The notes below the pieces were generated by a model, which was not told the DNA's origin, searched no databases, and saw only the letters and a list, made by a program, of their open reading frames with translations. Both the position numbers and the translations under genes were made by a program. Shown piece by piece: positions 362 to 20,554 of a DNA stretch of 27,458 nucleotides. The stretch spans positions 1 to 27,458 of the IMG/VR virus record IMGVR_UViG_3300005264_000157; one strand, written 5' to 3'. This DNA comes from a virus. Within the stretch, counting starts at the first letter, position 1. Every line of letters begins with the position of its first letter.

Positions 362-377
362 TATGTTTTACAACATA
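362..377. promoter_or_regulatory. 16-bp palindromic element, copy a
   Basis: TATGTTTTACAACATA has perfect TATGTT/AACATA arms. It spans the stop codon of the receptor-binding protein gene and lies about 30 bp upstream of the next start at 330. It shares the nine-base core TATGTTTTA and the terminal CATA with the copies at 10122 and 16680. It is likely an operator or regulator site at an operon junction. No convincing TAnnTTTG box was found at the expected distance here. Confidence 0.45.
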
Positions 378-1267
378 AAACAAATATTTAGTGATAAATT
401 TGTTAATCCGAAACTAGATGCTATAACTTCGCCGCTTGCTTTTACTTCAATATAAGAGCAAGATGTAACATCCCCATCATCTTCAACTACAGGAAATAAC
501 ATTTGTGAAGATGGTCTGCAATATGTAGGTAATTGAAATATTGTTGTTGATGTTCCTAGTTTTACATGTCCTTGAATATGTACCACGTTGTTAAAATCTC
601 TTTTGTATCTTGCTTCTTGATATGGACTTCCGTAGTTTGCCCACGTAGTCAATAATGAGGGAGTTTGCCATTCGTCTACGCTTTTTGTGTTCGTGAATGT
701 TTTTACGTTTATATCTAAAGTTGTCGTGCCGCTACTTAATTCTATTGTATCATTGAAAAACCCAAAACCGTTTTTGTTTCTTCTAATATACAACGTTATT
801 GTGCCACTGACATCAAAATATTCTAACGGTATAATCTCATTAAAATAATTAATACCATCTACTGACAAAGAAAAATCTTTTAGCTTGTTATTTACAAAAC
901 TTAAACCATCTATTAAATTAGCATAAGTTAATACAATTGTTGTTTCTAAATATCCACTATCCTCAATATCTGCATCTGTAATAGTTACTTCGGGGTCAAC
1001 TGAAAAGCTTAATGTTGGGGCTGTATTTGATGTTGTATTATCAACAATTATATCTTCTATGAAATTATCAAATATATCAAACACTTGAATATAAGCGTAT
1101 TTTATGCCTGTATCTTTTGTAACTCGGTCTACTTTTGCACTAAATTCTAATTCGTCATTCTCTAAATAAAATACATCATTATTAACTTTCGCTAATTTCG
1201 GAGTATCTGAATTAGGAAAATAAAAACTAAATATTTCGTTTGTATCTACTATTTTAACTTTTATCAT
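368..1267 (-). CDS. Putative tail fibre / receptor-binding protein
   Basis: This 299-residue protein is rich in beta structure, Asp, Thr and Ser. The N-terminal two thirds look like stacked beta domains, with a DPEVTITDADIEDSG acidic stretch near residue 93. The last 100 residues match the pattern of C-terminal receptor-binding domains of siphophage tail proteins: WQTPSLLTTWANYG, then V-x-I-x-G-x-V-x-L-G, then LPTYCRPSSQMLFPV. I infer host-surface recognition at the tail tip. Its ATG overlaps the TGA of the upstream hub gene (ATGA), so translation is probably coupled. The stop codon lies inside a palindromic regulatory element. The fold assignment is by pattern only. Confidence 0.65.
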   Translation of the reverse strand: MIKVKIVDTNEIFSFYFPNSDTPKLAKVNNDVFYLENDELEFSAKVDRVTKDTGIKYAYIQVFDIFDNFIEDIIVDNTTSNTAPTLSFSVDPEVTITDADIEDSGYLETTIVLTYANLIDGLSFVNNKLKDFSLSVDGINYFNEIIPLEYFDVSGTITLYIRRNKNGFGFFNDTIELSSGTTTLDINVKTFTNTKSVDEWQTPSLLTTWANYGSPYQEARYKRDFNNVVHIQGHVKLGTSTTIFQLPTYCRPSSQMLFPVVEDDGDVTSCSYIEVKASGEVIASSFGLTNLSLNICFML

Positions 1268-4056
1268 AGTGAAAAACTTTCATTTTGTGATTTTTGCGAG
1301 GTATTACCATCATTTAAATTAGCTGCATTTACATTAGCAGAACCGCCACCGCTACCTCCATTATTAACCTCCCAAACTTTAATATTTGCAAGATAATCAT
1401 TGCTTTGATATTCGTCAAAAGAGTATGTAATATAGCTTTCTATTTCTAGCTTATAATCATTTACGCTTGCAGATGCTGCATTAAGTTTTATTTTCCAACT
1501 ATTAGTAGCAATAGGTACATTAATGTAATTACCTACTGTTAACGCTAACCACGTAATCCCCCCATCTGTTGAATATGTGTATTTACTTGATGTATTTGTA
1601 ATCACTTTTAATCTAGCAGAAGTTCCCCCTACTGCAATAACATCTAAATCATAAATTACCGTTGATGTGTTGCCTGTCGTAACTTGCTTAATTGCGTTGT
1701 AACTTGCGGCATCGAAACTCACTCCTGTAAACGTATAACTTGGTAAAGTTCCTGTATAATGTGGATTAATTAATGTGCTTATTAACTCGAATTTTGTTAG
1801 ATTGTCTTTTGTAAATGAATCTAATTTATTAATTCTGTGTAAATTTCCGTTATAGTCAATTAATGTATTATGTTTTATTTGACTGTATTCGTCTTCTTGT
1901 ATATCAATATCACATTCAATAATATTAAGATTCGGATTAATTAAATCGTTTAATTTCCTTTGTAAATAGTCTTCTCTTACATTGTCTTTTAAAAATTGCG
2001 TATGAAAGTGTAATGTTTTATTTGCTTTCGTTGAAGTAGCTACAGTCAATACATTTAACTGAACGTTTGCCCCTAATTCATTTCCTAATATTTTACTTGT
2101 TGGCTGTTTGTCAATGAAGTACAAAAATGTACCGTTGCCATATTCTCTGATATTATAAGGGTCGTTGTAACTTCCTGTTTTGTCATTGATTTTGTAAAAT
2201 ATGCCTAAATCTAAAATAAAATTATTGTATATCATTTCAGGCAAAGTAAATATTAATTCAATTTCTTGCGTACCCTCGTTATTAAAGGACGTGAAAGTAT
2301 CTAATTTATTTAAGTCATTTTGACTTGGCAGAATTTCTGAATCAGTATATTTATATTTGTATTCTCTATTGATTTCTGAACTAGGCAATAGCATATTAAC
2401 ACTATCCTTATCTACTTTATTAGTTAAGTTTAATATTGTAGATTTAGATATAAAATATTCGTCAAATGTATAAAATGTAAATGTTTTATTTAATGTCGAA
2501 TAATCAAATTGTAAATCTGCAAAGTTTATAACGTTCTTTAAAAACTCGTAAGCTGATATATTTGGTAATACTCGCCTTAATGGATATTCTGTATTGTCTC
2601 TTATTGTAGATTGTTCTTCAATTTCGTAATCGCCAGACGTTTTAAGATTTAAAAAATCTAAATATCCAACATCTGCAAAATCGTGAGGGACTTCAAATTC
2701 AGCCCTACAACTAAAAACAACTGATAATTTATATTCTGTATCTTTTAAAAATCTAAAATTTTCATCAATTATAAAATCTAAAGAATGTGAATTATATCTG
2801 TTAATGTCGTAAAGTTGTTGATTTCCAACCACATACTCATTACCTCCCTCTTGCAGTATTATGTATACAGACCCTGATAACCTGAACCAAAAGCCTAACT
2901 CATTCCCATCGCTATCATTTGTAGCCGTGTCAAATGTAACTTTTAATTCAGCTTTTAATTTACCGTAAATATTTTCTGTTACTTCAAATTTAGTTGATGT
3001 AAAACTTCCTGTAGTATCGGTTAATTCTGTTTGTATTTTTGCGTAAAGGTTATTATCGTCAACTGCCTGTACCCATTGTTTTGTGTAATCGTTATTGTTG
3101 TTAAATTTACATTTATTTTCTACTATATTCTCATCTTTGTAATTCTCAAAGTCTGTAATTGTAAGCTCTTGACAATAAATTGAGTCGAACCAATCGCCTG
3201 TTATATTGTATTCTGTTGCATCGCTTATACTTTCTATTATCTTATCTAATCTAGCACCTACAATACAATGAGATGTTGCAATATCCCAAACAGGAATATA
3301 CCCCCCTATGAAAAAATTACCGCCCGTATAATTGCCTAAGTCTGCAAATGAATATCTACAATAATCGTCATTATCATTTATTATGTTATCGCTTGTTATT
3401 TCAAATACCTTATCTGCAATATCTAATTGCGACATTGTAATATTTTTCAATTTCTCTACAAAGTCTAATTGTTCACTTACAAATTGAGCATTTATAAACT
3501 CATCATTTCTGGACGTTAAAATTAATTCGCCTTGTAATTCATCTAATACTGCTATGTATGTTATTCTGTTGTCGTTTGGATAAACAAAAACTGATTGAGC
3601 TTTATTATTGTTTACAATCTCAAAGTCTTTACTATGTTCTAATGCAATGTTTTCTATATCTGTTACGCTATTGCTAATTTTTGTTAGTTCAATGGTAGAA
3701 TCTACAACGTCTATTAAAGCTGCATCAATTTCTATTACCTCTATGTTATCAAAATAAATACCTCCTGCAACTGAATTTACTTCAAAAGTCCAAAAGTTCG
3801 AACTTGCTGTAAAATAACCCTCTTTTGTATACCCTGTGATATAAGTTGTATCTGTTACATCATCGCACGTAGTATTATTGAATTTAAAATAATATCTATT
3901 GCCAACTGTTAAACTAACAGGAAATTTTAAAGTTGTAGAACCAACTAAACGCCTAACTGATTTATTAGATTTAGGATTTAATACTTCATTTGCGTATAAT
4001 AAAGGAAAATTTAATAACGTCCCCTCGCAATATATTTTTTTCTTAACGTAAAGCAT
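1264..4056 (-). CDS. Large tail-tip / baseplate hub-like protein
   Basis: This protein of about 930 residues has no enzymatic motif that I recognise. The N-terminus is beta-rich. A central part around residues 490-560, with ISAYEFLKNVINFADLQFDYS and then KTFTFYTFDEYF, resembles the hub folds of tail-associated (Tal/gp27-like) proteins. The C-terminus ends in a low-complexity GGSGGGSANVN linker and a short polar tail. Size and place, between a distal-tail-like protein and the receptor-binding protein, fit the tail-tip hub that holds fibres and opens the tube. The frame also has a TTG two codons earlier; the ATG at 4056 is preferred. The start overlaps the upstream gene by 14 nt. Confidence 0.6.
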   Translation of the reverse strand: MLYVKKKIYCEGTLLNFPLLYANEVLNPKSNKSVRRLVGSTTLKFPVSLTVGNRYYFKFNNTTCDDVTDTTYITGYTKEGYFTASSNFWTFEVNSVAGGIYFDNIEVIEIDAALIDVVDSTIELTKISNSVTDIENIALEHSKDFEIVNNNKAQSVFVYPNDNRITYIAVLDELQGELILTSRNDEFINAQFVSEQLDFVEKLKNITMSQLDIADKVFEITSDNIINDNDDYCRYSFADLGNYTGGNFFIGGYIPVWDIATSHCIVGARLDKIIESISDATEYNITGDWFDSIYCQELTITDFENYKDENIVENKCKFNNNNDYTKQWVQAVDDNNLYAKIQTELTDTTGSFTSTKFEVTENIYGKLKAELKVTFDTATNDSDGNELGFWFRLSGSVYIILQEGGNEYVVGNQQLYDINRYNSHSLDFIIDENFRFLKDTEYKLSVVFSCRAEFEVPHDFADVGYLDFLNLKTSGDYEIEEQSTIRDNTEYPLRRVLPNISAYEFLKNVINFADLQFDYSTLNKTFTFYTFDEYFISKSTILNLTNKVDKDSVNMLLPSSEINREYKYKYTDSEILPSQNDLNKLDTFTSFNNEGTQEIELIFTLPEMIYNNFILDLGIFYKINDKTGSYNDPYNIREYGNGTFLYFIDKQPTSKILGNELGANVQLNVLTVATSTKANKTLHFHTQFLKDNVREDYLQRKLNDLINPNLNIIECDIDIQEDEYSQIKHNTLIDYNGNLHRINKLDSFTKDNLTKFELISTLINPHYTGTLPSYTFTGVSFDAASYNAIKQVTTGNTSTVIYDLDVIAVGGTSARLKVITNTSSKYTYSTDGGITWLALTVGNYINVPIATNSWKIKLNAASASVNDYKLEIESYITYSFDEYQSNDYLANIKVWEVNNGGSGGGSANVNAANLNDGNTSQKSQNESFSL

Positions 4057-5308
4057 ACTCAAAACTTACTTTATATTGAAACAATTTACTTTTGTCTTTT
4101 CTGTATATCTGTTCTGTTTTATCCACAATATTAACAGGAACAATTACACCATCTATTGATAAATAAACCTTTTCCGAACCCCATAGAGATTTTAAATAGT
4201 TAATTTCATCAAGTGTTAAATAGTCTGTAATTAAATCAAATGTGTATTGTTGTTGTATTCCTATCTTATGTACATTGTGATTGTCATTGTCGTTTATCTG
4301 TTGCCAATCTGCATAGTTAGAAGCGTTATACTCATCGCTTACAGTTTTTAATCTATCTGTACGATATTTATTAAAGTTCATAAAATCGTAGCCGCCAACT
4401 TGATTAATCCAATGTGCTGTTATAATTTTATTATCGCAATTTGTAATTGTGTATTTTGCTCTTTCTTCTACACCGCTAATGAATTTCCATACTTCAAAAC
4501 TTATTATGTCGCCTCCGAAACTAGGAACGTCATAAATACCTGTTGCTGCTCCTGTGCTTGAATGCCATACGTTTGATAAATCCCAGTAACCTAAACGATT
4601 TAATGATGTTGTTTCTAGTGTTTTAATTCCTACAGGAACAAACGCCCCACTTGTCGAACTTTCTAATGCAGAACCTACTCCTGCTGTAAAATCGTAATAG
4701 TTAGATAATTGTAATTCAAATCTCCATTTGTAACCTGTATCAAATAACGCTTCATAATATACATCTATATGACCGATTGAAGTAATGTAACCATCTTCTA
4801 ACCTAGATGCGTTGTAAACACACGTATACGCTTCTGTATTCCTGTCTTGACGTATGTTTTTTTCTAAAGCATTTGATAATAAAAAGTTTCGCATTTGCTT
4901 CCATGCATTCGGATAAATATTTCTATCTTCATTGTCTGTACGTTCCGCTAATAAACCTCTAGTAAACAACCCTACAACTCCCTGTAATGAGCCGTTGTAA
5001 AACTCCTGAACTGTTACTTTATAATCGTAAACAGCTCTAAAATAGCTTATTGAATTACTATATTCTGTATTAAGTTTCTTAGATATGTATTTATTTGCAT
5101 CAAAATAACCATAACCGTTAATTGTTGGCGTTGCGTTGTATGTTGTAATTGTTCCCTCATAATCGGTTAATACAAATACATATTTAAAATCTATATAGTT
5201 TCCTACTTGCGAACTATCGGCAATATAAAAAGCTGGGTTTTTCTTATCGTGTGGATAAACTAAACCGCTACTAACTGTATTACCTACTTGTTTTAATGTT
5301 ATTGCCAT
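4043..5308 (-). CDS. Distal tail (Dit-like) protein
   Basis: This is a 421-residue, aromatic-rich beta protein. The C-terminal 65 residues carry a pattern seen at the end of distal-tail proteins in Bacteroidota phages: LTLDEINYLKSLWGSEKVYL, then VPVNIVDKTEQ, then YKVSFEYALR. The expected role is a ring at the tube end linking the tail tube to the hub encoded next. It is encoded directly downstream of a gp10-like head-tail joining protein, with a 10-nt overlap, and overlaps the hub gene by 14 nt. The function is inferred from order and pattern; a general minor tail protein is the alternative. Confidence 0.55.
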   Translation of the reverse strand: MAITLKQVGNTVSSGLVYPHDKKNPAFYIADSSQVGNYIDFKYVFVLTDYEGTITTYNATPTINGYGYFDANKYISKKLNTEYSNSISYFRAVYDYKVTVQEFYNGSLQGVVGLFTRGLLAERTDNEDRNIYPNAWKQMRNFLLSNALEKNIRQDRNTEAYTCVYNASRLEDGYITSIGHIDVYYEALFDTGYKWRFELQLSNYYDFTAGVGSALESSTSGAFVPVGIKTLETTSLNRLGYWDLSNVWHSSTGAATGIYDVPSFGGDIISFEVWKFISGVEERAKYTITNCDNKIITAHWINQVGGYDFMNFNKYRTDRLKTVSDEYNASNYADWQQINDNDNHNVHKIGIQQQYTFDLITDYLTLDEINYLKSLWGSEKVYLSIDGVIVPVNIVDKTEQIYRKDKSKLFQYKVSFEYALR

Positions 5309-5694
5309 TGTCCTTTTATTTTTTCTTTTATTTCAAACCCTAACGCCTTTTCAATCTGTATTTTATTTGCTCGTATTACGTCTGCAAAATTGTGTATAAA
5401 TGGATGTGGCTTTGTTCCGTATTTTTTAATTGACATTGCAACCGCCCAAACATTTAATCCTTTTTTTGCAGCCCACTTTCTAAGACTATTAACAGGAGGC
5501 ATATGTGGATTTGTCCCTTTATCTAAATAAACTCCATATTTTAACATTTCAAATTCTAAAGAATAACTTAAATAATTTCCTCTAGATACTTGAAATTTAA
5601 AAGACTTAGATAAATGTCCAGAACTATCGGCAATATCTTTTTGCATTGCCTTAATAATCTCTTTACCTATCTTATTTAACGTATCTGATAACAA
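5299..5694 (-). CDS. HK97 gp10-like head-tail joining / tail-completion protein
   Basis: This 131-residue protein has a lysine-rich helical N-terminus and the family-like core YGVYLDKGTNPHMPP, then WAAKKGLN and SIKKYGTKPHPFI. These resemble small connector or virion-morphogenesis proteins that join head and tail. The frame has no ATG before residue 17. The best start is a TTG at 5694 that overlaps the upstream gene by 19 nt and follows a purine-rich AGAAAAAC stretch, so an unusual start codon is likely. The neighbours are a small unknown gene and the connector upstream, and Dit downstream. Confidence 0.65.
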   Translation of the reverse strand: MLSDTLNKIGKEIIKAMQKDIADSSGHLSKSFKFQVSRGNYLSYSLEFEMLKYGVYLDKGTNPHMPPVNSLRKWAAKKGLNVWAVAMSIKKYGTKPHPFIHNFADVIRANKIQIEKALGFEIKEKIKGQWQ

Positions 5695-5897
5695 AGTTTT
5701 TCTTTTTTGCCTATTTTTACAATCTTAAAATCTTGCTCTTTTAACGCCTTAATCTCTTTAGGCTTTAATGTTGTTAAAGATAATTCTAATGTTTTGTGTG
5801 TCATTTTTAAAACTATTACGTTCTTTGCACTTACTTCTGTAAGTTTCTGCAATATCTCTTGACTTGTTGCTCCTGTTGAATGTCTAAATTGTATCAT
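5676..5897 (-). CDS. Small protein in the head-tail connector block, function unknown
   Basis: This is a 73-residue basic protein with an alternating helix/strand pattern and no recognised motif. It lies between the connector-like gene (2-nt gap) and the gp10-like gene (19-nt overlap), so it belongs to the structural operon. Its size and place would suit a second small head-tail connector or stopper, but no sequence feature proves this. Confidence 0.55.
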   Translation of the reverse strand: MIQFRHSTGATSQEILQKLTEVSAKNVIVLKMTHKTLELSLTTLKPKEIKALKEQDFKIVKIGKKEKLCYQIR

Positions 5898-5899
5898 AA

Positions 5900-7983: not shown

Positions 7984-7993
7984 AATAATTAAT

Positions 7994-8020
7994 AAAAAAC
8001 CCCCTCATATTTGAGAGGGT
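7994..8020 (-). terminator. Intrinsic terminator after the capsid/tube genes
   Basis: On the minus strand ACCCTCTCA-AATA-TGAGGGGGT forms a 9-bp stem with a tetraloop, followed directly by six T. The one imperfect pair is a G-U wobble on the minus strand but a C-A mismatch on the plus strand. There is a T-tract only on the minus-strand side, so the direction is clear. It ends 10 nt before the ATG at 7983 and probably reduces, rather than ends, transcription into the portal operon. Confidence 0.85.
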
Positions 8021-8045
8021 CTAATTTATAAACAATGAACTAAAA

Positions 8046-8591: not shown

Positions 8592-8592
8592 A

Positions 8593-9480: not shown

Positions 9481-10098
9481 TTATTTATTATAATTTTTAT
9501 CTTGTTCCATCATTCTCTCTGAAAATGACATATCTTCTAACTTTATTTCCTTTTCTCTGACTGGTTGTTTTTCTAATTCGACAACCTTGTCGGCTAATTC
9601 TTTATTAGCTGTTTCCATAGCTTCCAATTTAGCAAGAATAACATCTGTAGGAGTTTCTTTTTCTTCTACCTTTGGAGTGTCTTCTTTTACTTCTGTAGCT
9701 TTATTTTCACTAAGAGTTACTATTTTTTCGTTTGCAGATTCCAAATCTGCTGTAAGAGTTGTTTTCTCTTGCTCTAGTTCGGCAACTTTTGCCTCTAATT
9801 CTTTTGTATCCACTTTATTTAATTTTAAATTTACTTCTTTATCTATTGATGTAATAACGCCTGAACTATCAACCATCATTTTTTCGCCACCCTCTAATTC
9901 GTATTCTCCTGCTTCTAATGGCTCAGTCTCGTTATCCCACCATCTGCGAATAACTTTATTACCTACTGCAAATACATCTGTATCTACTTCGATATACCAT
10001 TTATTAACACGTGCTATTTGTGCTAAGTTGATAGCCTCTTGTACATCGTCTTTTAACAACGCTTTTATTTGATTAACTTTTTCAGTTGCTTTTGTCAT
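9481..10098 (-). CDS. Putative head scaffolding protein
   Basis: This protein of about 205 residues is acidic and has a long coiled coil over roughly residues 97-140 (LEAKVAELEQEKTTL, LESANEKIVTLSE) and a second one near 160-185 (LEAMETANKELADKVVELE). Before it is a small beta module, LEAGEYELEGGEKMMVDSSG. Scaffold proteins next to capsid genes often look like this: low complexity, coiled coil, removed during maturation. A GTG at 10113 would add five residues, but the ATG at 10098 is preferred. It lies 6 nt upstream of the capsid gene. A plus-strand insert separates it from the protease gene. Confidence 0.6.
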   Translation of the reverse strand: MTKATEKVNQIKALLKDDVQEAINLAQIARVNKWYIEVDTDVFAVGNKVIRRWWDNETEPLEAGEYELEGGEKMMVDSSGVITSIDKEVNLKLNKVDTKELEAKVAELEQEKTTLTADLESANEKIVTLSENKATEVKEDTPKVEEKETPTDVILAKLEAMETANKELADKVVELEKQPVREKEIKLEDMSFSERMMEQDKNYNK

Positions 10099-10121: not shown

Positions 10122-10161
10122 TATGTTTTATAGCATATTAACAAATAATTGTTTATCTTTG
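10122..10161 (+). promoter_or_regulatory. Rightward promoter with palindromic element, copy b
   Basis: TATGTTTTATAGCATA (10122-10137) matches the elements at 362 and 16680 outside two central bases. A Bacteroidota-type -7 box, TATCTTTG, lies at 10154-10161. The position expected for a -33 box is covered by the element and has no TTTG. It should drive the plus-strand HTH and DUF115-like genes, with a start near 10168 and an 18-nt leader to the ATG at 10186. The element is also about 24 bp upstream of the leftward scaffold start, so it may act on both directions. Confidence 0.55.
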
Positions 10162-10185: not shown

Positions 10186-10359
10186 ATGGAAACGACAATA
10201 AAAGACTATTTCACAGTTAAAGAGTTAGCAGATAGAGCTGGAGTAACTCCGAAAACAATAAACGAATGGCGAAAAAACGACATTATTAAATCTTGTAAAA
10301 TTGGAGGGCGTAGATACTTCCATAAATTCGATGTTCATAAACTTTTAAATGCAATGTAA
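10186..10359 (+). CDS. Small MerR/excisionase-type HTH regulator
   Basis: This 57-residue protein is essentially one winged HTH domain of the HTH_17/excisionase kind: DYFTVKELADRAGVTPKTIN (helix-turn-helix), EWRKNDIIKSCKIGGRRYF (wing), then a short helix DVHKLLNAM. Such proteins act as phage regulators or directionality factors, and no integrase is seen here. The start at 10186 is chosen because upstream in-frame codons fall inside the promoter and palindrome. It is on the opposite strand to all structural genes and overlaps the next gene by one base (TAATG). It may bind the palindrome in its own promoter. Confidence 0.75.
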   Translation: METTIKDYFTVKELADRAGVTPKTINEWRKNDIIKSCKIGGRRYFHKFDVHKLLNAM

Positions 10360-10907
10360 TGAGGTGTACTATTGTAGCAACAGGAAACAGCCTAAGAGGT
10401 TTTGATTTTGGTAGAATAAAAGATTATACTATTGCTGTTAACGATGCTTATAAATATTGCAATTATGATATTTGTGTTTCTTTTGATAAAAAGAAAGCAT
10501 TAGAGTTTAAGGGTAATAAAGAAAAGTTGCATACATTAGCAAGGAATAGCAGGAAAATACCATTTGATACAACTAAGATAAATAGCAATGAATATCTAGT
10601 ATCTGATAATTACGAACTATCATTTAACTATCCTTACGTTGGGGCTTTCCGTTCTACTCTGCTATTTGGTATTAATATAGCTATTCTAAAAGGATTTACA
10701 GATATTCATATTCTAGGGGCGGATAATAAACTAAGTGATTATAGGTACTTTTACGATACGAATCCAAGCACTAAAGACTCTGACTTTAAAATATTTCTTA
10801 CTTATATGAAAATGATACAACAAGACATTAATCATAAAAAAATAGCACTAACTTTTTATGATAGTACTATTAAATTATTTAATAATAAAGATTTAAGCGA
10901 GTATTAA
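10359..10907 (+). CDS. DUF115/MptE-like or glycosyltransferase-like protein (moron)
   Basis: This 182-residue protein has a Rossmann-like start, CTIVATGNSLRGFDFGRI, then IAVNDAYKYCNYDICVSFDKK, and later GFTDIHILGADNKLSD. This order (G-x-SL nucleotide loop, avNda, D, lG-D) is that of DUF115/6-hydroxymethylpterin-kinase-like and sialyltransferase-like proteins found in surface-glycan loci and in some phages. Surface modification or superinfection exclusion is an inference. It is translationally coupled to the HTH gene by TAATG and converges tail-to-tail with the protease gene, with 15 nt overlap. No terminator is visible between them. Confidence 0.6.
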   Translation: MRCTIVATGNSLRGFDFGRIKDYTIAVNDAYKYCNYDICVSFDKKKALEFKGNKEKLHTLARNSRKIPFDTTKINSNEYLVSDNYELSFNYPYVGAFRSTLLFGINIAILKGFTDIHILGADNKLSDYRYFYDTNPSTKDSDFKIFLTYMKMIQQDINHKKIALTFYDSTIKLFNNKDLSEY

Positions 10908-11498: not shown

Positions 11499-11501
11499 AT
11501 C

Positions 11502-13485: not shown

Positions 13486-13487
13486 AA

Positions 13488-13880: not shown

Positions 13881-14496
13881 TTTTCTTTAATCTGATTAAC
13901 ATAAATATTTGTCTTATTAGTTTTTTTTCGTTTAGTTCTTGTTTATCAAGGTCAAAGTCTGCTAGTTCTGTACTCATAGGCAACCAACCGTTATATTGTT
14001 CTGTTGCCTCATCTGATTTAGTTATTATGTCGCTGTAATCTTCATATAATTGTTTTTGCCAATCTTGAAAAGCTTTAATCTTTGGTAGCTCAAACGCTAT
14101 GCTGTTATTATTAGTTAAATAGTTTTCTACATCATCTGAACTATAACCATTGCCTAATGTAATACAAGCAATACAACGTTGTACGTCTCCTGTATGGAAA
14201 TAGTAATCTATATCAATGAAGTTGCCAAATGTTATCTTATCAAAGTCTTTTTTATATTCTTTAAAGTTTGGTATTAATATATTTTGTATGTCTATATCTG
14301 TAATAGAATCATCTGTTATACAGTCAATATACATTTTAGGTACATCAGACAAATGAGTTAATATGCTCTTAATTATCGTTGTTGGCGTTGTACAAGTTGC
14401 AAATGTTTTTTCAAATGCTGCATATTCTGCAACGTTTAAAGATTCGACATTGTTAATTGTATACTCATCTGTATTGTTTATTTTTAGTTTTATCAT
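13852..14496 (-). CDS. Putative tail assembly chaperone
   Basis: This 214-residue protein is mostly helical and acidic: ESLNVAEYAAFEKTFATCTT, KDFDKITFGNFIDIDYYFHT, a repeat-poor middle, and a C-terminal FQDWQKQLYEDYSDIITKS. Proteins of this kind, two genes upstream of the tape measure, usually act as gpG-like chaperones that keep the tape measure soluble. I looked for the classical -1 shift at its end and did not find a fitting downstream frame. It overlaps the terminase gene by 4 nt (ATGA) and the next gene by 29 nt. Confidence 0.45.
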   Translation of the reverse strand: MIKLKINNTDEYTINNVESLNVAEYAAFEKTFATCTTPTTIIKSILTHLSDVPKMYIDCITDDSITDIDIQNILIPNFKEYKKDFDKITFGNFIDIDYYFHTGDVQRCIACITLGNGYSSDDVENYLTNNNSIAFELPKIKAFQDWQKQLYEDYSDIITKSDEATEQYNGWLPMSTELADFDLDKQELNEKKLIRQIFMLIRLKKNANDKRHTA

Positions 14497-15791
14497 ATTA
14501 CACCCATTTCAAACTGTCCTACTTCTTTTATGTGGTATATCATACCCATTAATAACATATCTAAATAATCAGGGCTTTTGCCTAAACTTAGTTTCATTGC
14601 ATCCTTTTTGATTATCTTTTTTTTATCTAAATCTACATTATCTCTTTTTAAACAAACTGATAATTCTCTTTTAATTAGTTCCTCTTGACTATCATTACAA
14701 ATTATTCTTAACTGTCTGTTGTTAATTAATTCAGCTAATTTAAACGAACACTCATCTTTTAGATTACCAAATTCTAAAGTCTTAAATGCTTTTGCTCCAC
14801 CGTGGAAAGTCTTTATGTTCTTTATATAAGATTCTAAATAAGCTCCTAATCCATCGCTATCTGCTACTATATTAGTATTTGCAACGCCTTTACTATTCTT
14901 TAAGTTTGTTAAATCAGTTTCGATACTCTTTCCGTTGGCTTTAGGTTTATCAATTGCAACCTCACAAATTAATCCCTCCCAATATCCAGCAATAAAACTA
15001 TCTCTACCCTGCATTGCTAAATCTGCGCTAATTCTTTTGTCGCCTTTTGCTACGTGTGTATTTGTGAATATATCACATATTGCATTGTAATTGCATAATG
15101 CTGAGGGGTCATCGTCATACTCCCAATTACCAAAATATAAACGTTGTTTACTTGCATCGTCTAATTCTAATAAACTTTCTAAATACGATTCTGGTAAATG
15201 TGGGTTATCTGTTGGTAAAGCTTGAATAAATTTTTTATTATTACCTAATGTATTTTCTTTGTTTGGTTTATAAAACTTTGAATAAGCCCATTTATGAGTT
15301 GGGTTGCAAGTCCCTAACATTTTAGGTATTAAATCAAATTCTGTTAATTTATATCTGATTCTACTCTTTACTATTTGCCAAGCTTTAAAGGTTATTTGCG
15401 AAACCTCATCGATGAAAGCTCCTGTAATTTCTAAACTTCCTAATTCGTCAAACTCGGGGTCTGATGGATATGCAAACAAATCTTTTAATAAAATTTCACT
15501 TCCATTATCCCAAGTAATTACGCTCTTTTGTGAATTATAATTATACTGTTCAGATATCCCAAACGAAGAAGTTAACTCGAAGAATGTATTTAATGTAGTT
15601 TCTTTTAATGTCTTTAGTTTCGCACGTCCCATTAACCACCTTGAGTTTGGGTATTTTTGGCAATTCTCAATTAACCACAAACAACCAAGAGCAGACTTAC
15701 CACCACCTGCAGCACCTCCATAAAGGAGTTCATTAGTAGAATTATCCTTTAGATAATATACTGCATTTTCTTGTTTGGTTAATAATTCCAT
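14493..15791 (-). CDS. terL: Terminase large subunit
   Basis: The 432-residue packaging motor has all key parts. Walker A is GGAAGGGKS at residues 25-33. Walker B lies at residues 123-129 and ends with D128-E129 (TGAFIDE). The coupling motif is LGTCNPTH. The C-terminal RNase H-like nuclease has acidic residues in ISADLAMQGRDS, VADSDGLGAYL and SPDYLDMLLMGM. It translocates DNA into the prohead and cuts the concatemer. It follows the small subunit after 55 nt and overlaps the next gene by ATGA. The length is normal for the family. Confidence 0.93.
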   Translation of the reverse strand: MELLTKQENAVYYLKDNSTNELLYGGAAGGGKSALGCLWLIENCQKYPNSRWLMGRAKLKTLKETTLNTFFELTSSFGISEQYNYNSQKSVITWDNGSEILLKDLFAYPSDPEFDELGSLEITGAFIDEVSQITFKAWQIVKSRIRYKLTEFDLIPKMLGTCNPTHKWAYSKFYKPNKENTLGNNKKFIQALPTDNPHLPESYLESLLELDDASKQRLYFGNWEYDDDPSALCNYNAICDIFTNTHVAKGDKRISADLAMQGRDSFIAGYWEGLICEVAIDKPKANGKSIETDLTNLKNSKGVANTNIVADSDGLGAYLESYIKNIKTFHGGAKAFKTLEFGNLKDECSFKLAELINNRQLRIICNDSQEELIKRELSVCLKRDNVDLDKKKIIKKDAMKLSLGKSPDYLDMLLMGMIYHIKEVGQFEMGVI

Positions 15792-15846
15792 TTCTTTTTG
15801 TTTTCATACTGTAAGAAGTTGCCTAAATCGTTGCTATCATTGAGTT

Positions 15847-16275
15847 TTATTTTTTTGGCTTTTGTCCGTTGCCTAGACTAATAACATTTACATCTCCTTT
15901 AATACTATTATCTACTTCTGATTTATCCTTGTAATTGTGATGATTCGTTAAAACAAACTTAGTCATTTGTGCATTTAATTTATCAAACACCCCATATTTA
16001 ATAAGCTTTAGCTCTTGTATTTTCTTTGCTTTCTCTATTAACTTTAAAAATGACGTATGTTTATTACTAAGATAAGCTATCAACTCAGGATAAAACCCTC
16101 TTTCTATGACAAGGTATTCCTCAAAGAATATATTTTCATCCTCTAAGCTTAGCCATTTAATTAAATCGTTGCCTACTTCTATTGCCTTTTCCTCAGTCCA
16201 TTTTTCTTGAGGCTTGTAAGTAGAGCTAAACTGCTTACCATCTTCAGGTCTTATATTTCCTTTACCTCCAGGCAT
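15847..16275 (-). CDS. terS: Terminase small subunit
   Basis: This 142-residue helical protein is encoded directly before the large terminase gene. The N-terminus is basic and glycine-rich (MPGGKGNIRPEDG), followed by an HTH-like region (WLSLEDENIFFEEYLVIERG) and the conserved end MTKFVLTNHHNYKDKSEVDN typical of small subunits in this phage group. It recognises phage DNA and regulates the large subunit. Its ATG overlaps the last base of the HhH gene upstream. There is no Walker motif, as expected. Confidence 0.8.
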   Translation of the reverse strand: MPGGKGNIRPEDGKQFSSTYKPQEKWTEEKAIEVGNDLIKWLSLEDENIFFEEYLVIERGFYPELIAYLSNKHTSFLKLIEKAKKIQELKLIKYGVFDKLNAQMTKFVLTNHHNYKDKSEVDNSIKGDVNVISLGNGQKPKK

Positions 16276-16673
16276 TACTTAATTAAATCAATAGCAAGTA
16301 TAGCAGTATCTTTAAAATTGTCTTTAAGTCCAATTGTTTCTATTTGCTCGGTTGTAATTTCTGCTAATTGTTCAAACGTTCCTATACCAGCGTTATAAAG
16401 TTTATCGGCTGTAGCTTGTCCTATTCCTCTTACTTTCGTAAGGTCGTCTTTAATCATAGATGTTCTAGTTAAGTACCAATCTCTGTAAATGCTTCTCAAG
16501 ACCCCTCGAAATGTACCTGTACACATAGAATATCTTAATGTCTTGTTGTATTTCTCATTGAATACATCAATTACAATTATCCTATCTTTTTTATTTTTAA
16601 ATTCAAAAGATATAATTTGTCCTTTATCGTCAGATTGAACTAACTCTGTAAATACTTTATCTAATCTTTGCAT
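16275..16673 (-). CDS. Helix-hairpin-helix protein next to terminase
   Basis: This 132-residue protein has an N-terminal alpha/beta part of unknown fold (GQIISFEFKNKKDRIIVIDV, then CTGTFRGVLRSIYRDWYL). The C-terminus from about residue 78 carries tandem helix-hairpin-helix sequence: LTKVRGIGQATADKLYNAGI, then GTFEQLAEITTEQIETIGL. Such domains bind DNA without sequence preference. It directly abuts terS and is the first gene after a terminator and a palindromic element, so it may start the packaging operon. A packaging, DNA-end or late-regulator role is open. Confidence 0.7.
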   Translation of the reverse strand: MQRLDKVFTELVQSDDKGQIISFEFKNKKDRIIVIDVFNEKYNKTLRYSMCTGTFRGVLRSIYRDWYLTRTSMIKDDLTKVRGIGQATADKLYNAGIGTFEQLAEITTEQIETIGLKDNFKDTAILAIDLIK

Positions 16674-16679
16674 AATAAA

Positions 16680-16695
16680 TATGTTTTAAAACATA
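16680..16695. promoter_or_regulatory. 16-bp perfect palindrome, copy c
   Basis: TATGTTTTAAAACATA is a perfect palindrome 7 bp upstream of the HhH gene start and 30 bp downstream of a terminator. It shares TATGTTTTA and CATA with the copies at 362 and 10122. On the minus strand a weak promoter may lie just upstream: TTG, 20 bp, TTACTTTA, which only partly fits the TAnnTTTG rule. The palindrome would then cover the transcription start, as a repressor site does. Confidence 0.5.
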
Positions 16696-16725
16696 AAGTA
16701 ACTAATAATAATTGATATAAACAAC

Positions 16726-16753
16726 AAAAACCCCTACAAATTAATATAGAGGT
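16726..16753 (-). terminator. Intrinsic terminator before the packaging operon
   Basis: On the minus strand ACCTCTA and TAGGGGT form a 7-bp stem around a 10-nt loop, followed by TTTTTG. The single wobble (U-G) is allowed only in the minus-strand RNA. It lies about 55 nt after the stop of the gene at 16807-17109 and closes the early-type small-gene operon. Confidence 0.7.
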
Positions 16754-16806
16754 CTTGTTTAGTGTGTTGTTTGGGTTATAATAATTCTTTTGCTGTTTCT
16801 AATAAT

Positions 16807-17109
16807 TTAATTGTTTTGCATATTAATAACATCTATATCAAAGAAAGTACTTATTTCTTTTTCAGTTTGTTTATGTGTTACCTTAATTTCATTGAAGTAA
16901 ATATCAAAGAATCCAGCCACTAAACTAGATTGTCCAGTATCATTATCTAGTTCAAATATACGTTCATCATTTGTATCAAAATCTATGTATATTAGATAAT
17001 TAAGGGTTTCAACATCTATTATCTGATGTTCATCTTCTGTATTAAGATATTTACAAATAATATCTGTAATATCTAATTTACCAGCTACGGTGTATTTTTC
17101 TAGTTCCAT
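16807..17109 (-). CDS. Acidic small protein, unknown
   Basis: This 100-residue protein is strongly acidic (YLNTEDEHQIIDVETLNYLI, FDTNDERIFELDNDTG) with predicted alternating strands. No family is recognised. Small acidic phage proteins of this kind can be DNA mimics or inhibitors, but nothing here proves it. It overlaps the end of a small membrane protein gene by 10 nt and is followed by a terminator, so it is the last gene of its operon. Confidence 0.55.
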   Translation of the reverse strand: MELEKYTVAGKLDITDIICKYLNTEDEHQIIDVETLNYLIYIDFDTNDERIFELDNDTGQSSLVAGFFDIYFNEIKVTHKQTEKEISTFFDIDVINMQNN

Positions 17110-17258
17110 TGTTTTAAATTTTTATAAAGTAAATAAATTAAATAACATATAATAAATATTGCTAGTATCTCAGCTATTAATAAAGGCATATACGCAACTA
17201 TTATAACTGATATAACAATTATAACAAATGTTAATAATATTGCTTTTATTGTTGCCAT
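17100..17258 (-). CDS. Small two-helix membrane protein
   Basis: The 52-residue ORF starts MATIKAILLTFVIIVIS. It has two hydrophobic helices, residues about 5-22 and 26-45, joined by a short turn with MP and an acidic IAEI, and a basic tail YKNLKQWN. It overlaps the gene upstream by 13 nt and the one downstream by 10 nt, the spacing of coupled genes. A holin is conceivable from topology, but there is no endolysin nearby, so the role is open. Confidence 0.55.
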   Translation of the reverse strand: MATIKAILLTFVIIVISVIIVAYMPLLIAEILAIFIICYLIYLLYKNLKQWN

Positions 17259-17464
17259 AACTTTGTATATCTTAATTTAAGTCTTTCAATTACCATCTCA
17301 CAAATTATTATTCTATGATCCAACCACTCTTTCGAGTAAAGGAAATGAGCTTCGTACAGCTTCTTATCATCTTCTTTGGCTTGTATCATACCTCTATAAG
17401 ATTTGATATGCCCTAGTAGTTCTAAACTAGTTTCGTGTTTCTCTATTAGTTTATCTATTTGCAT
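17246..17464 (-). CDS. Small helical protein, unknown
   Basis: This 72-residue protein is predicted to be all helical, with many charged residues (IEKHETSLELLGHIKSYRGM, KEWLDHRIIICEMVIERLKL). It contains no metal or catalytic motif. It sits inside the overlapping chain of small genes driven by the promoter at 17569, with 10 nt overlap to the peptide ORF upstream and 13 nt to the membrane protein downstream. Confidence 0.5.
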   Translation of the reverse strand: MQIDKLIEKHETSLELLGHIKSYRGMIQAKEDDKKLYEAHFLYSKEWLDHRIIICEMVIERLKLRYTKLWQQ

Positions 17465-17544
17465 ATCGCAGTTATTAAAAAGTATGAAACTGTTAATATT
17501 AGAATTATCTCACTGCTGAATCGTTGTAGTTTTAAGTTTTTCAT
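17455..17544 (-). CDS. 29-residue membrane peptide ORF
   Basis: The ORF codes for a basic N-terminus (MKNLKLQRFSS) and one hydrophobic helix (IILILTVSYFLITAI). It is the first ATG after the promoter at 17569-17576, with a leader of about 18 nt, and its TAG overlaps the ATG of the next gene by 10 nt. The placement supports translation; it could be a real peptide or a leader that couples translation to the next gene. Confidence 0.4.
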   Translation of the reverse strand: MKNLKLQRFSSEIILILTVSYFLITAICK

Positions 17545-17568
17545 AATTTTATCTTTTTAAGTACACCA

Positions 17569-17645
17569 CAAATATACAACGGTAATTACAATAAACTTAT
17601 GCTGCAAAACATCTTTAGTGATTATTTTTTATGTTCTTTAACACT
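17569..17645 (-). promoter_or_regulatory. Leftward promoter with paired regulator sites, copy d
   Basis: The minus-strand -7 box TATATTTG lies at 17569-17576, inside GTTGTATATTTGT. The element GATGTTTTGCAGCATA (minus strand, 17598-17613) sits where a -33 box would be, and no TTTG -33 is present. A weaker second site TATGTTCTTTAACACT (plus strand, 17630-17645) lies 32 bp further out and overlaps the stop of the upstream gene. The layout repeats that of the promoter at 20478-20554, with the same 22-bp and 32-bp offsets. Confidence 0.65.
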
Positions 17646-17814
17646 TAAAACCGTTTAAAAATTCTGCTATTGGATTACTTACTTCCGATTCGTTAACTTT
17701 CAATATAGTTAATTCGTTTTTCACTTTCTGAATTGCAGTTTGTTTATTTGCGGCAATAGTCGTTACTTTTAGCTTTTTGCCGTATATCTTGAAATATATA
17801 GTATACTCTTTCAT
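17638..17814 (-). CDS. Small conserved-looking phage protein, unknown
   Basis: This 58-residue ORF reads MKEYTIYFKIYGKKLKVTTI, then an Ala/Lys helix (AANKQTAIQKVKNELTI) and a polar end IAEFLNGFKC. The beta-beta-alpha order and basic character are common in small phage proteins. The start is 4 nt after the stop of the gene at 17819-18031. Its stop lies within the outer regulator site of the next promoter. Confidence 0.55.
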   Translation of the reverse strand: MKEYTIYFKIYGKKLKVTTIAANKQTAIQKVKNELTILKVNESEVSNPIAEFLNGFKC

Positions 17815-17818
17815 AATC

Positions 17819-18031
17819 TTAACTATTAATATAATCGTCTGTATACTCTATCATAACATTGTTTTCTAGTTTGCTATAAACTACTTCTGTGTTCTTAGTT
17901 AATTCTAGTATAGCTTTTGCGACTTCTTTATATGACTCTTCTCTTACTGCAGTAACGCTCCAATTTCTGTATTGTTCTTTTAATGTTACTGATTTTCTTT
18001 GTAATATTTCTATTATTTGTTTTTCTGTCAT
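17819..18031 (-). CDS. Small protein, unknown
   Basis: This 70-residue protein is a single long helical N-terminus (MTEKQIIEILQRKSVTLKEQ) followed by a second helix (SYKEVAKAILELTKN) and a short acidic C-terminus. No family is recognised. Its ATG lies about 13 nt behind the T-tract of an intrinsic terminator, so its level may depend on read-through from the DnaA-domain gene. Confidence 0.5.
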   Translation of the reverse strand: MTEKQIIEILQRKSVTLKEQYRNWSVTAVREESYKEVAKAILELTKNTEVVYSKLENNVMIEYTDDYINS

Positions 18032-18044
18032 AATCTTAAAGTTT

Positions 18045-18068
18045 AAAAAGGGGTATATCTCAACCCCT
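18045..18068 (-). terminator. Terminator/attenuator hairpin in the leader of the next gene
   Basis: On the minus strand AGGGGT-TGAGATAT-ACCCCT makes a 6-bp stem with an 8-nt loop, followed by TTTTT. There is no T-tract on the plus-strand side. The hairpin ends 13-18 nt before the ATG at 18031, leaving no room for a new promoter, so it is probably a partial stop that lowers expression of the genes beyond. Confidence 0.65.
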
Positions 18069-18105
18069 AAATTATCAATTCAAAACACTCTACAATATAC
18101 TAATT

Positions 18106-18570
18106 TTATTGATATTTTTCAATTTCTTCGCCTATTTTTTTAACAAATAACTTAATATCCTTATCATATGCTAATAATGTTTCAATTACAATTATGCTAT
18201 GATGTACTGAACTATGGTCTCTGTTTATTTTTTCAGCTATCTGTACTAGTGTTTTAGCTGTGTACTTTCTAGCAAAATAAGAATACAATTGCCTTGCTGT
18301 TACTATTGTCCTATGCCTTGCTTTTGATTCAATTTGATTAACTGTTATGTTTAAATAATCTGCAATCTCTTGCTTAATTATATCTAATGTTAAAAATTGA
18401 TGTCTTTTTATATTACCAAAAAATATATAAAACTCATCTTCAAAATGATACGCAAATGATACTTTTAACTGTTCTTTCATTTGTTCTATTTTCTCATTAG
18501 GTGTATTTATTGAGTCTAATAATGTGTATGTATCTTCATACTCCTGAGTTGTGTTAAATTGTATATTCAT
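18106..18570 (-). CDS. Stand-alone DnaA domain IV-like protein
   Basis: The C-terminal half of this 154-residue protein (about 60-145) fits the DNA-binding domain IV of DnaA: LDIIKQEIADYLNITVNQIE, then IVTARQLYSYFARKYTAKTL, and the box-binding signature RDHSSVHHS at 117-125. No AAA+ ATPase domain is present; the first 55 residues are acidic and of unknown fold. It may bind DnaA boxes at the phage origin or compete with host DnaA. The neighbourhood (annealing protein, Gp157) is early replication. A DnaA-box-like palindrome lies 0.7 kb upstream at 19299. Confidence 0.8.
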   Translation of the reverse strand: MNIQFNTTQEYEDTYTLLDSINTPNEKIEQMKEQLKVSFAYHFEDEFYIFFGNIKRHQFLTLDIIKQEIADYLNITVNQIESKARHRTIVTARQLYSYFARKYTAKTLVQIAEKINRDHSSVHHSIIVIETLLAYDKDIKLFVKKIGEEIEKYQ

Positions 18571-18594
18571 AGCTTTAAAGTTTTTGTTATGTAA

Positions 18595-18816
18595 TTATTT
18601 TACAGATTCGTTTACTATTTCCTCAATTGATTGATGATGCCACGTTTCGCCATTTACAACAAAAAAATATTCTGTATTGATATATTCGTCTAATCCGTTG
18701 TAATTAGCTAAACCTTTTGATGTTAATTTATACTTTTTGATTAACAATTTTAGTTCCTTTTTAAATCTATTTATTTTAGCTTTTTGTGCTTCAAATTCCT
18801 TTTCATAACTTCCCAT
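18595..18816 (-). CDS. Small basic protein, unknown
   Basis: This 73-residue protein has a Lys-rich amphipathic N-terminal helix (FEAQKAKINRFKKELKLLI) then a compact end with VNGETWHHQSIEEIVNE. No known motif is present. It overlaps the upstream gene by 14 nt and ends 24 nt before the DnaA-domain gene, so it belongs to the same early operon. Confidence 0.5.
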   Translation of the reverse strand: MGSYEKEFEAQKAKINRFKKELKLLIKKYKLTSKGLANYNGLDEYINTEYFFVVNGETWHHQSIEEIVNESVK

Positions 18817-19054
18817 TAAGTATTTTTTTATGAATTATTGATGTTATTTCAATCTTTAATTGTTGTTCTGCTAAGAATAAACCACCTGCTTTAATTGACA
18901 AAACTCGTATAGAGTTGTGATAAATATGATAAGTCCATCTGTTGCCTCCATCTTTTACCATTATCCACTCTTCGCCTAAGATACTATACTTATAAGTTGT
19001 TTTATTAACTCTTATACGCTCGATGTCGTATGATGCTGTTATTTCTATTTCCAT
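18803..19054 (-). CDS. Small beta-rich protein, unknown
   Basis: This 83-residue protein starts with a strand pattern (MEIEITASYDIERIRVNKTT) and continues with tryptophans in EEWIMVKDGGNRWTYHIY, then a helix with LAEQQLKIEITSIIHKK. No family is recognised. It overlaps the preceding 49-residue ORF by 10 nt and the next gene by 14 nt, which suggests translational coupling. Confidence 0.5.
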   Translation of the reverse strand: MEIEITASYDIERIRVNKTTYKYSILGEEWIMVKDGGNRWTYHIYHNSIRVLSIKAGGLFLAEQQLKIEITSIIHKKILNGKL

Positions 19055-19194
19055 ACTGATTTATATTTTACTAATTTAAATACTCTACGTTTATTGTATT
19101 TATTGCAAAGAATATCATAAAATTGGCTTTCGCTACTTGCTTCTATTTTGTTTAATTCTCTACGTATAATTAACTTTATTAAATAATGAATCAT
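19045..19194 (-). CDS. 49-residue basic ORF, unknown
   Basis: The ORF encodes MIHYLIKLIIRRELNKIE, a polar middle, and a Lys/Arg-rich end NKRRVFKLVKYKSVWK. Its ATG overlaps the TGA of the gene upstream (ATGA) and its stop overlaps the next start by 10 nt. This fills an otherwise unexplained gap in a chain of overlapping genes and is the main support for it. The high positive charge could mean DNA or RNA binding. Confidence 0.5.
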   Translation of the reverse strand: MIHYLIKLIIRRELNKIEASSESQFYDILCNKYNKRRVFKLVKYKSVWK

Positions 19195-19409
19195 CTTACA
19201 AGTTTTAAGTAAAGATTATAAAGACTATTTGCATCTAAATCAGAGTCTAATTTAATAGCGTCTGAACTATTTATCCTATGTGCGGAGTGAATTATTAGTT
19301 TATCCACGTGGATAAATACATCTATGTTTCTACTCTGTGTTGTTTCTAATCTTGCACAAACAGTTACAATAGATTGTAATAACTCTAATATTTCTGTGGT
19401 TATTTTCAT
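19191..19409 (-). CDS. Small protein, unknown
   Basis: This 72-residue protein contains ITTEILELLQSIVTVCARLE at the N-terminus, then DVFIHVDKLIIHSAHRI and an acidic helix DSDLDANSLYNLYLKLV. No family is recognised. It overlaps the Gp157-like gene upstream by 4 nt (ATGA). The coding sequence contains an 18-bp perfect palindrome at 19299-19316 that may be a replication signal. Confidence 0.5.
   Translation of the reverse strand: MKITTEILELLQSIVTVCARLETTQSRNIDVFIHVDKLIIHSAHRINSSDAIKLDSDLDANSLYNLYLKLVR
19299..19316. other. 18-bp palindrome containing two DnaA-box-like sites
   Basis: TTTATCCACGTGGATAAA is a perfect inverted repeat. It contains TTATCCACG on both strands, which matches the DnaA box TTATCCACA at 8 of 9 bases. 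It lies within a coding region, 0.7 kb from the gene of a DnaA domain IV-like protein. It could be a binding site of that protein or part of an origin. Confidence 0.45.
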
Positions 19410-19927
19410 TTAATTTGCAAATTTAGATTTGTTTGTAATTCTACTCCTTTGATTTTCTTGCCAGCTTTTAAATCCTTTTTTATTTCAGTTTTACTTATCG
19501 GCTTAATCTCTATTTTTTGGTATTGTTTTGGCAACTCCTGAACTTCGCAATTAATAACAACACTTTCAGATTTTCGCAAACTTAATTTATTTAAATGCAA
19601 TTCCATTTTATCAACATCAAAAGCAATCATAGCCTTTTTAATGGCTTGTTTCATTCTTTCAATAGCATTAATACGAGCCTTTTTAATTGCTGTTAATCGT
19701 GCTATTTCCTTAGTGATGTAATCTGCTTCACTATCTAATTTGTTAATAACTGCAATATAGCTTTCTGACTTCTGCATTAAATCAGTTTCGTTAATCTGTA
19801 GTGCATTATCTATACTTTCGGTTAACTCTCCTTGATTATCTTCTAATAAGTGCATAATACGCTCTTGTTCTTCTGATATCCTGTATAGACTTCTTGTTTT
19901 TTCAAACTCTCTTTTACTCGTTCCCAT
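19406..19927 (-). CDS. Siphovirus Gp157-like protein
   Basis: This 173-residue protein follows the Gp157 family pattern: NQGELTESIDNALQINETDL, KSESYIAVINKLDSEADYIT, KEIARLTAIKKARINAIERM, KQAIKKAMIAFDVDKMELH, then beta strands SLRKSESVVIN and the end IKPISKTEIKKDLKAGKKIK with KGVEL. The middle is a long coiled coil. In other phages the gene is tied to recombination/replication genes, and a resistance role was once proposed in streptococci. Here it follows the annealing protein after a 2-nt gap. Confidence 0.85.
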   Translation of the reverse strand: MGTSKREFEKTRSLYRISEEQERIMHLLEDNQGELTESIDNALQINETDLMQKSESYIAVINKLDSEADYITKEIARLTAIKKARINAIERMKQAIKKAMIAFDVDKMELHLNKLSLRKSESVVINCEVQELPKQYQKIEIKPISKTEIKKDLKAGKKIKGVELQTNLNLQIK

Positions 19928-19929
19928 TG

Positions 19930-20454
19930 TTACGATTTTTTATAGTTAAATCTTAATTTGCCTGTGGTATCTTTTGCTGCTAATTTTATTAAAACATTAT
20001 CTTTAAATTCAGCTCCCCAAATCCACTCTCTTAATTTTAATTCAAACGATGGTCTGAATTTACCGTTATACTCTGTTATTTCGTTGTCATTCAATTTAAT
20101 TGATATAATAGGGTAATCGTATAATTCCCTACCTATCCCCCAATTAAAACAAGCTCTTTTAAAACTATCACTAGCCAGACCCTTTGCAGCTTCTGTATTG
20201 CTTTCACTTCCTGTATCTTCTTTACTTATCCACTCTTTTGTATCTTCATTAAAAATAGACACTATGCAATTAGCATTGTTTTTAGTATGCTCTCGTTTCC
20301 AATTTAAAGCACCACAAACAGCATCTAATCTATTCATATCTACTCTAGCATCTTTGTATGCAAGTATAGTTGCGTATTTACCTTTATTAATTGATTGTAT
20401 TCTGAAATCAATATCTGATATTGCTAAAGGTTTTGTAAGGTCTTGTATTTTCAT
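19930..20454 (-). CDS. Rad52-like single-strand annealing protein
   Basis: This 174-residue protein resembles Rad52/Sak-type recombinases: YATILAYKDARVDMNRLDAV, CGALNWKREHTKNNANCIVS, EWISKEDTGSESN, then GLASDSFKRACFNWGIGREL with LYDYPI. It anneals complementary single strands during phage recombination and replication. An ATG seven codons upstream (20475) begins only 3 bp after the -7 box and would lie at or before the transcription start, so the ATG at 20454 is chosen. Gp157 follows after 2 nt, a common pairing. Confidence 0.85.
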   Translation of the reverse strand: MKIQDLTKPLAISDIDFRIQSINKGKYATILAYKDARVDMNRLDAVCGALNWKREHTKNNANCIVSIFNEDTKEWISKEDTGSESNTEAAKGLASDSFKRACFNWGIGRELYDYPIISIKLNDNEITEYNGKFRPSFELKLREWIWGAEFKDNVLIKLAAKDTTGKLRFNYKKS

Positions 20455-20477
20455 CGTTCTAGTTTTTAAATTCATTA

Positions 20478-20554
20478 CAAATATACAACTCTATTATGTA
20501 TTAATTTATGCTGAAAAACACGTTTTAAGTTTTTATTTTATGTTATATAGCATT
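20478..20554 (-). promoter_or_regulatory. Leftward promoter with paired regulator sites, copy e
   Basis: The -7 box TATATTTG (minus strand, 20478-20485) lies in GTTGTATATTTGT. The element CGTGTTTTTCAGCATA (minus strand, 20507-20522) replaces the -33 region. A second site TATGTTATATAGCATT (plus strand, 20539-20554) is 32 bp further out and touches the stop of the ribbon-helix-helix gene. The offsets equal those of the promoter at 17569. It drives the annealing protein/Gp157/DnaA-domain operon. Confidence 0.65.

Follow-up and report, generated by a model that had tools for sequence, protein, structure and literature searches.

Dispersed dyads matching the Bacteroides Cur site at operon junctions of a viral genome fragment

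A 27,458-nucleotide stretch of a virus genome (IMG/VR record IMGVR_UViG_3300005264_000157, positions 1 to 27,458; here called the window) carries a dispersed 16-bp dyad that matches the published binding site of Cur, the Crp-family master regulator of carbon use in Bacteroides, known as BT4338 in B. thetaiotaomicron (PMC3878776, PMC6989115). Six strong copies lie at gene ends or promoters, and two promoters share an exact tandem arrangement of the dyad. Judged from the sequence, we consider it probable (about 0.7) that the phage wires several of its operons into the carbon-starvation regulon of its host.

The site of BT4338, first called Crp and now Cur, was described as wwwTATGTTnTAnAACATAwww (Ravcheev et al. 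2013, PMC3878776). For fusA2, chromatin immunoprecipitation sequencing (ChIP-seq) and the deletion of 22 bp showed that Cur binds CCTTATGTTACATAACATTGTT ahead of the gene and switches it on when carbon is limiting (Townsend et al. 2020, PMC6989115). Genome-wide, Cur both activates and represses (PMC6989115). The window resembles this regulon in having the dyad TATGTTnTAnAACATA near TANNTTTG promoters. The described Cur regulon consists of host genes only (carbohydrate operons, fusA2 and masB), whereas the window holds six strong sites in 27 kb. No phage promoter was found as a Cur target in PMC3878776 or PMC6989115.

The dyad and its match to the Cur site

The dyads and the associated -7 boxes of the window are as follows.

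362 to 377, no strand: dyad TATGTTTTACAACATA, 22.8 bits, exact Cur consensus
10122 to 10137, plus strand: dyad TATGTTTTATAGCATA, 20.0 bits, one mismatch to the Cur consensus
10154 to 10161, plus strand: Bacteroidota -7 box TATCTTTG, 16 bp downstream of the 10122 dyad
16680 to 16695, no strand: perfect dyad TATGTTTTAAAACATA, 21.2 bits, exact consensus match
17569 to 17576, minus strand: -7 box TATATTTG of module 1, serving an operon of small genes from 17464 to 16807
17598 to 17613, minus strand: proximal dyad GATGTTTTGCAGCATA of module 1, 14.9 bits, 21 bp upstream of the -7 box
17630 to 17645, minus strand: weak distal dyad AGTGTTAAAGAACATA of module 1, 7.0 bits, the only other high score within 130 bp
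20478 to 20485, minus strand: -7 box TATATTTG of module 2, serving a Rad52 / Gp157 / DnaA-C-like operon
20507 to 20522, minus strand: weak proximal dyad CGTGTTTTTCAGCATA of module 2, 9.9 bits, 21 bp upstream of the -7 box
20539 to 20554, minus strand: distal dyad AATGCTATATAACATA of module 2, 15.8 bits
23142 to 23157, no strand: dyad TATGCTGCACAACATA (minus-strand reading), 20.5 bits

The palindrome ATGYTNNNNARCAT is present in seven copies and is the extreme member of a set of 60 palindromes obtained by permuting the half-site ATGYT at 5-4-5 spacing; the other 59 have a mean of 0.29 copies and a maximum of 3. The published consensus TATGTTnTAnAACATA gives six matches with at most two mismatches, against 0.95 expected, and none of 100 shuffles reached six. 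The dyads at 362 and 16680 fit this consensus without mismatch, that at 10122 with one, and those at 20539 and 23142 with two. A scoring matrix was further built from 27 Bacteroidales host sites (26 distinct), nearly all of them chromosomal sites found here and one the published fusA2 site; the window contributed none. Six window sites score at least 14 bits with this matrix, whereas 500 shuffles gave 0.13 such sites on average and never more than 3. The next-best score in the window is 10.9 bits, the same as the mean maximum of the shuffles. The strong dyads are located in non-coding DNA, which makes up ~6% of the window, or at gene ends and promoters. Their density is ~30 times that of a Parabacteroides chromosome, in which 27 strict dyads were counted in 3.7 Mb.

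An earlier first-pass annotation had listed five copies. Those at 362, 10122 and 16680 are exact, and the minus-strand copies at 17598 and 20507 are related to them by two and three mismatches, the latter being weak under the host matrix. Two of the six strong sites, 20539 and 23142, were missed. The pattern used in that annotation occurs no more often than by chance when up to three mismatches are allowed (51 matches against 48.9 in shuffled sequence), and a three-mismatch criterion is thus too loose. This background level, and two dyad-like matches inside genes at 14529 and 27249, are what one would expect if AT-rich chance palindromes had been chosen after the fact. Every externally fixed pattern gives a large excess, however, and an exact 32/21-bp layout is repeated, so that we give this explanation very little weight. 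Chance fails to explain the whole set, though it may hold for 14529, 27249 and possibly 17630. The proposal of a phage-wide set of sites at operon junctions is supported.

The sites are symmetric, that at 16680 perfectly so. Stoperators, known from temperate phages like L5, lack this symmetry: they follow the direction of transcription, and the phage's own repressor binds them. The element of the window shares with them its dispersal over a phage genome, but it has symmetric copies, which are found at promoters and correspond to the site of a host regulator. The suggested likeness to operators and stoperators is not supported; the dyad equals the published site of a host Crp-family regulator. 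Asymmetric, transcription-oriented sites of the stoperator type are ruled out by the dyad symmetry.

Promoter placement and a tandem module

A sigma-70 promoter scan of the window stayed at background, this promoter type being wrong for Bacteroidota. Bacteroidota -7 boxes TATNTTTG are found downstream of the dyads, at 16 bp for 10122 and at 21 bp for 17598 and 20507. The description of all copies as next to promoters or terminators is therefore right for these three in respect of promoters; the 16680 dyad lies directly before a start codon, a placement that is also compatible with promoter control, and the 362 dyad spans a gene end. The 10122 dyad sits in the divergent region between the gene 9481-10098 (minus strand) and the HTH_17 gene 10186-10359 (plus strand), and its 16-bp spacing is shared by several host promoters. 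The 16680 dyad is 7-22 bp upstream of the start of the gene 16275-16673 (minus strand), with a terminator at 16756-16727 just before it. This is close to the placement of the dyad before the Crp/Fnr regulator gene of Bacteroidales, where the dyad starts ~18 bp upstream in most Tannerellaceae. The 362 dyad covers the 3' end of the gene 368-1267 (minus strand), 32-47 bp upstream of the start of a secreted-protein gene (1-330, minus strand), and no recognisable -7 box was found for it on the gene strand. The 23142 dyad is at the 3' end of the gene 23131-23352 (minus strand), 8 bp upstream of the minus-strand TAATTTTG.

The minus-strand pairs 20539/20507 and 17630/17598 are both spaced by exactly 32 bp. 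They form a module of distal dyad, 32 bp, proximal dyad, 21 bp and TATATTTG, which stands before the Rad52 operon and before the small-gene operon; this layout with a TATNTTTG box occurs twice in the window and in none of 100 shuffles. With the -7 box taken as centred at -7, the middle of the proximal dyad would fall at about -40, and the module -7 boxes are not preceded by any recognisable -33 box of canonical form. In class II and class III CRP-dependent promoters of Escherichia coli, a dyad near -40 (-41.5) replaces the upstream promoter element, and this is the class II position of Crp-type activators. As in the modules, a second dyad in these promoters is found a whole number of helical turns upstream. 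The second dyad lies 32 bp upstream twice in the window and in the phage contig L167, and 33 bp upstream in the contig L582.

L167 belongs to the phage G002, which carries the same ~85-bp stretch. The stretch is located at 17569-17655 in the window and at L180 5478-5560 / L167 3860-3936. No matches between G002 and window proteins were found at E<=1e-4 in L167, and two weak matches were found elsewhere in the contig. A module common to two phages with otherwise almost no shared proteins suggests promoter exchange. A search for the layout also retrieved L582, in which a pair of strong dyads with 33-bp spacing stands 21 bp before TATCTTTG, upstream of a packaging operon, and L583, which has one strong dyad 21 bp before TATATTTG and more dyads elsewhere. 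Six of these further dyads, with varied centres, are gathered in L583 at 606-1906, within 1.3 kb of a 76-kb viral contig. The 32/21-bp tandem layout was seen in phages and in none of the host matches.

We propose that the dispersed dyads are sites for the host Crp-family regulator Cur. At two or more of the phage promoters, a Cur dimer would occupy the proximal dyad near -40, replacing the -33 box, with the second dyad 32 bp (three helical turns) further upstream. From there it would bring the sigma-ABfr polymerase to the -7 box TATATTTG, in the manner of a class II Crp activator that acts at a tandem site. Repression may apply to some operons, because the dyads at 16680 and 23142 sit where a bound protein could block RNA polymerase. 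Cur is predicted to be present in the host of this phage and to bind these sites, and the sign of its regulation is likewise a prediction.

Occurrence in host chromosomes and other phages

A GTDB scan for the dyad followed by a Bacteroidota -7 box retrieved mostly Bacteroidales chromosomes (Prolixibacteraceae, Parabacteroides, Tannerellaceae, Paludibacteraceae). The dyads precede host genes, including the gene of a Crp/Fnr-family regulator in two Prolixibacteraceae. This conserved protein has the domains cNMP_binding and HTH_Crp_2, and orthologues with 50-57% identity were found in 25 of 26 Tannerellaceae, the 26th having weak partial matches only. The dyad is present within 40 bp before the Crp/Fnr start in 23 of the 25, compared to 4 of 1847 control windows. 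A conserved dyad directly before the regulator's own gene is likewise a feature of the Cur regulon. The recognition-helix region SNMTTSNAIRTL is identical across the Prolixibacteraceae and Tannerellaceae sequences inspected. Cur orthologues are likely to exist in other Bacteroidales.

The binder might also be another Crp/Fnr paralogue of the host, or an unrelated host regulator with the same dyad such as an XRE protein. Bacteroidales have several Crp/Fnr paralogues, and one dyad lies just upstream of an XRE gene in Mariniphaga (L259). Yet it is one strong Crp/Fnr orthologue per genome (E ~1e-75) that carries the conserved dyad at a nearly fixed position, and published ChIP and deletion data link the dyad to BT4338 (PMC6989115); we regard this alternative as improbable.

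A Cur-type dyad very often precedes the -7 box of genes for the small RNA (sRNA) FopS (RF04319), at a near-fixed distance of 7-9 bp. These loci come from Bacteroidales chromosomes (L222, L223, L224, L225, L237, L250, L527-L556). Some have a second dyad 62-63 bp further up, and a few have a single dyad that lies ~35 bp further up. The transcriptional regulator of FopS was described as unknown in PMC11697453, in which BT4338 is not mentioned in connection with FopS, and Cur activates another sRNA, MasB (PMC10994844). Since the published work leaves the FopS regulator unknown, Cur is a testable candidate.

Of the 50 terminase-related contigs, those of the lineage G003/G042/G004, which was found without the motif, are enriched in sites, with 9 against 0.12 in G003 and 6 against 0.13 in G042. 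All seven strict dyads of G003 are intergenic. The closest terminase relative, L005, has one site. Conservation of the dyad across terminase or Rad52 relatives as a family was not found beyond this lineage and the L005 site. Enrichment was also found in G001, G002, G390, L582 and L583. No strong sites were found in the terminase-bearing Bacteroidales contigs L524-L526. LoVEphage has two sites, one of them common to BI-TP1. This dyad is kept between the two related temperate phages (MW660583, 21573; PQ571265, 50401), and in LoVEphage it belongs to the early region adjoining the S24 repressor genes, with a -7 box ~55 bp downstream of it.

Several observations weigh against a Cur regulon in this phage. 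Most of the 50 terminase-related contigs are at background, and 13 of 14 named phages of Bacteroides, Flavobacterium and other Bacteroidota have no site or one. The enrichment in G001, G002, G390, L582 and L583 is not independent, because these were found through the motif. Among the matches listed, exact consensus matches in IMG/VR are intergenic in 29 of 80 cases, compared to 25 of 80 for a control pattern, and single exact matches across IMG/VR look like chance. The distances from site to -7 box differ (8, 16 and 21 bp), and the dyads at 20507 and 17630 score weakly. A Bacteroidota host is what we infer from the -7 boxes and terminase kinship, and the proposed orthology with BT4338 is drawn from the consensus and the autoregulatory site in PMC3878776 rather than from the BT4338 sequence. 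Moreover, the window is a 27-kb fragment, and a phage regulator of the same specificity could lie outside it. The sites are not general in Bacteroidota phages, since the named phages mostly have none and most terminase relatives are at background. They are a property of certain phages, perhaps of those whose hosts have Cur.

Candidate regulators and the operons concerned

The following genes lie near the sites.

10186 to 10359, plus strand: HTH_17/MerR-like or excisionase-like protein of 57 amino acids (aa) (Pfam HTH_17, E 4e-11)
14493 to 15791, minus strand: terminase large subunit (Pfam Terminase_3), in the operon downstream of 16680
16275 to 16673, minus strand: helix-hairpin-helix protein (Pfam HHH_5, E 6e-8)
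19930 to 20475, minus strand: Rad52-like annealing protein (Pfam Rad52_Rad22, E 5e-9)

The HTH_17 gene is a candidate target downstream of the 10122 site. The gene 16275-16673 is the first one downstream of 16680 and the first of the packaging and structural operon. The Rad52-like gene, with its start at 20457 or 20475, is the first downstream of module 2.

The HTH_17 protein (10186) and a ribbon-helix-helix protein (20553) had been put forward as binders. A phage-encoded regulator of this kind, whether the HTH_17 protein, the small 20553 protein or the product of a gene past the contig end, could read the dyads as its operator set, with the likeness to the Cur site being convergent or copied. 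The HTH_17 gene has the strong 10122 site in its own promoter, as an autoregulator would; dispersed operators are common in temperate phages, and the window is incomplete. However, the dyad equals the host Crp-family site. It recurs in phages that have few or no genes in common with the window and carry other small regulators, and in host chromosomes beside housekeeping and sRNA genes. A search of viral contigs gave no relative of the HTH_17 protein, Pfam gave no match for the 20553 protein, and no CI/S24 repressor or integrase was seen in the window, itself a fragment. Relative searches with the HTH_17 and helix-hairpin-helix proteins gave nothing useful. A phage-borne binder therefore seems unlikely, if somewhat less so than another host regulator.

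A search of eight phage sequences, the window and seven others, several of them fragments, found no gene for a Crp-like protein, while the host positive control was recovered. As the consensus equals the published Cur site, the binder is likely a host regulator and not a phage repressor. Binding by Cur would account for the letters of the sites, their layout, their recurrence in unrelated phages and the lack of a phage-borne Crp in the available sequence.

Some further features were observed in the window. The two plus-strand genes at 10186-10907, encoding the HTH_17 protein and a 182-aa protein, form an island inside a structural module whose other genes are on the minus strand. The promoter of the island has a Cur-type site, and the island looks like a moron. 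The protein encoded at 18106-18570 has a C-terminus matching the DNA-binding domain IV of DnaA (Pfam Bac_DnaA_C, E 5e-18), with no match to the ATPase domain. Repeats resembling the T-arm of transfer RNA (tRNA) were found at 21030-21142 (GGTTCGAGTCC) and are possibly a tRNA remnant; ARAGORN, Rfam and folding gave no significant tRNA or structured RNA at 21030-21160 and 22935-23126.

Under regulation by Cur, the replication and recombination, packaging and small-gene operons would be coupled to the carbon status of the host. The sites at the operon junctions suggest that sugar availability in the cell sets the timing of the viral genes. In E. coli phage T1, a phage regulatory gene similarly reads the metabolic state of the host via a Crp-family protein (PMC6737242). 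T1 acts through this one regulator gene, pir, whereas several operons carry sites in the window. It is about an even bet that some Bacteroidota phages place several transcription units under a global starvation regulator of the host, without a phage regulator, by means of a reusable tandem-site module that moves between otherwise unrelated phages.

How Bacteroidota phages sense host physiology is little understood. The present analysis offers a candidate binding protein for a type of site that is usually attributed to phage repressors, and the module, if it works, would be a promoter part that needs no phage factors. Deletion strains of cur exist for B. thetaiotaomicron, so that a response to Cur is testable at once. 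If the proposal is true, sugar supply would directly gate the replication and packaging genes of phages in a dominant gut and environmental phylum.

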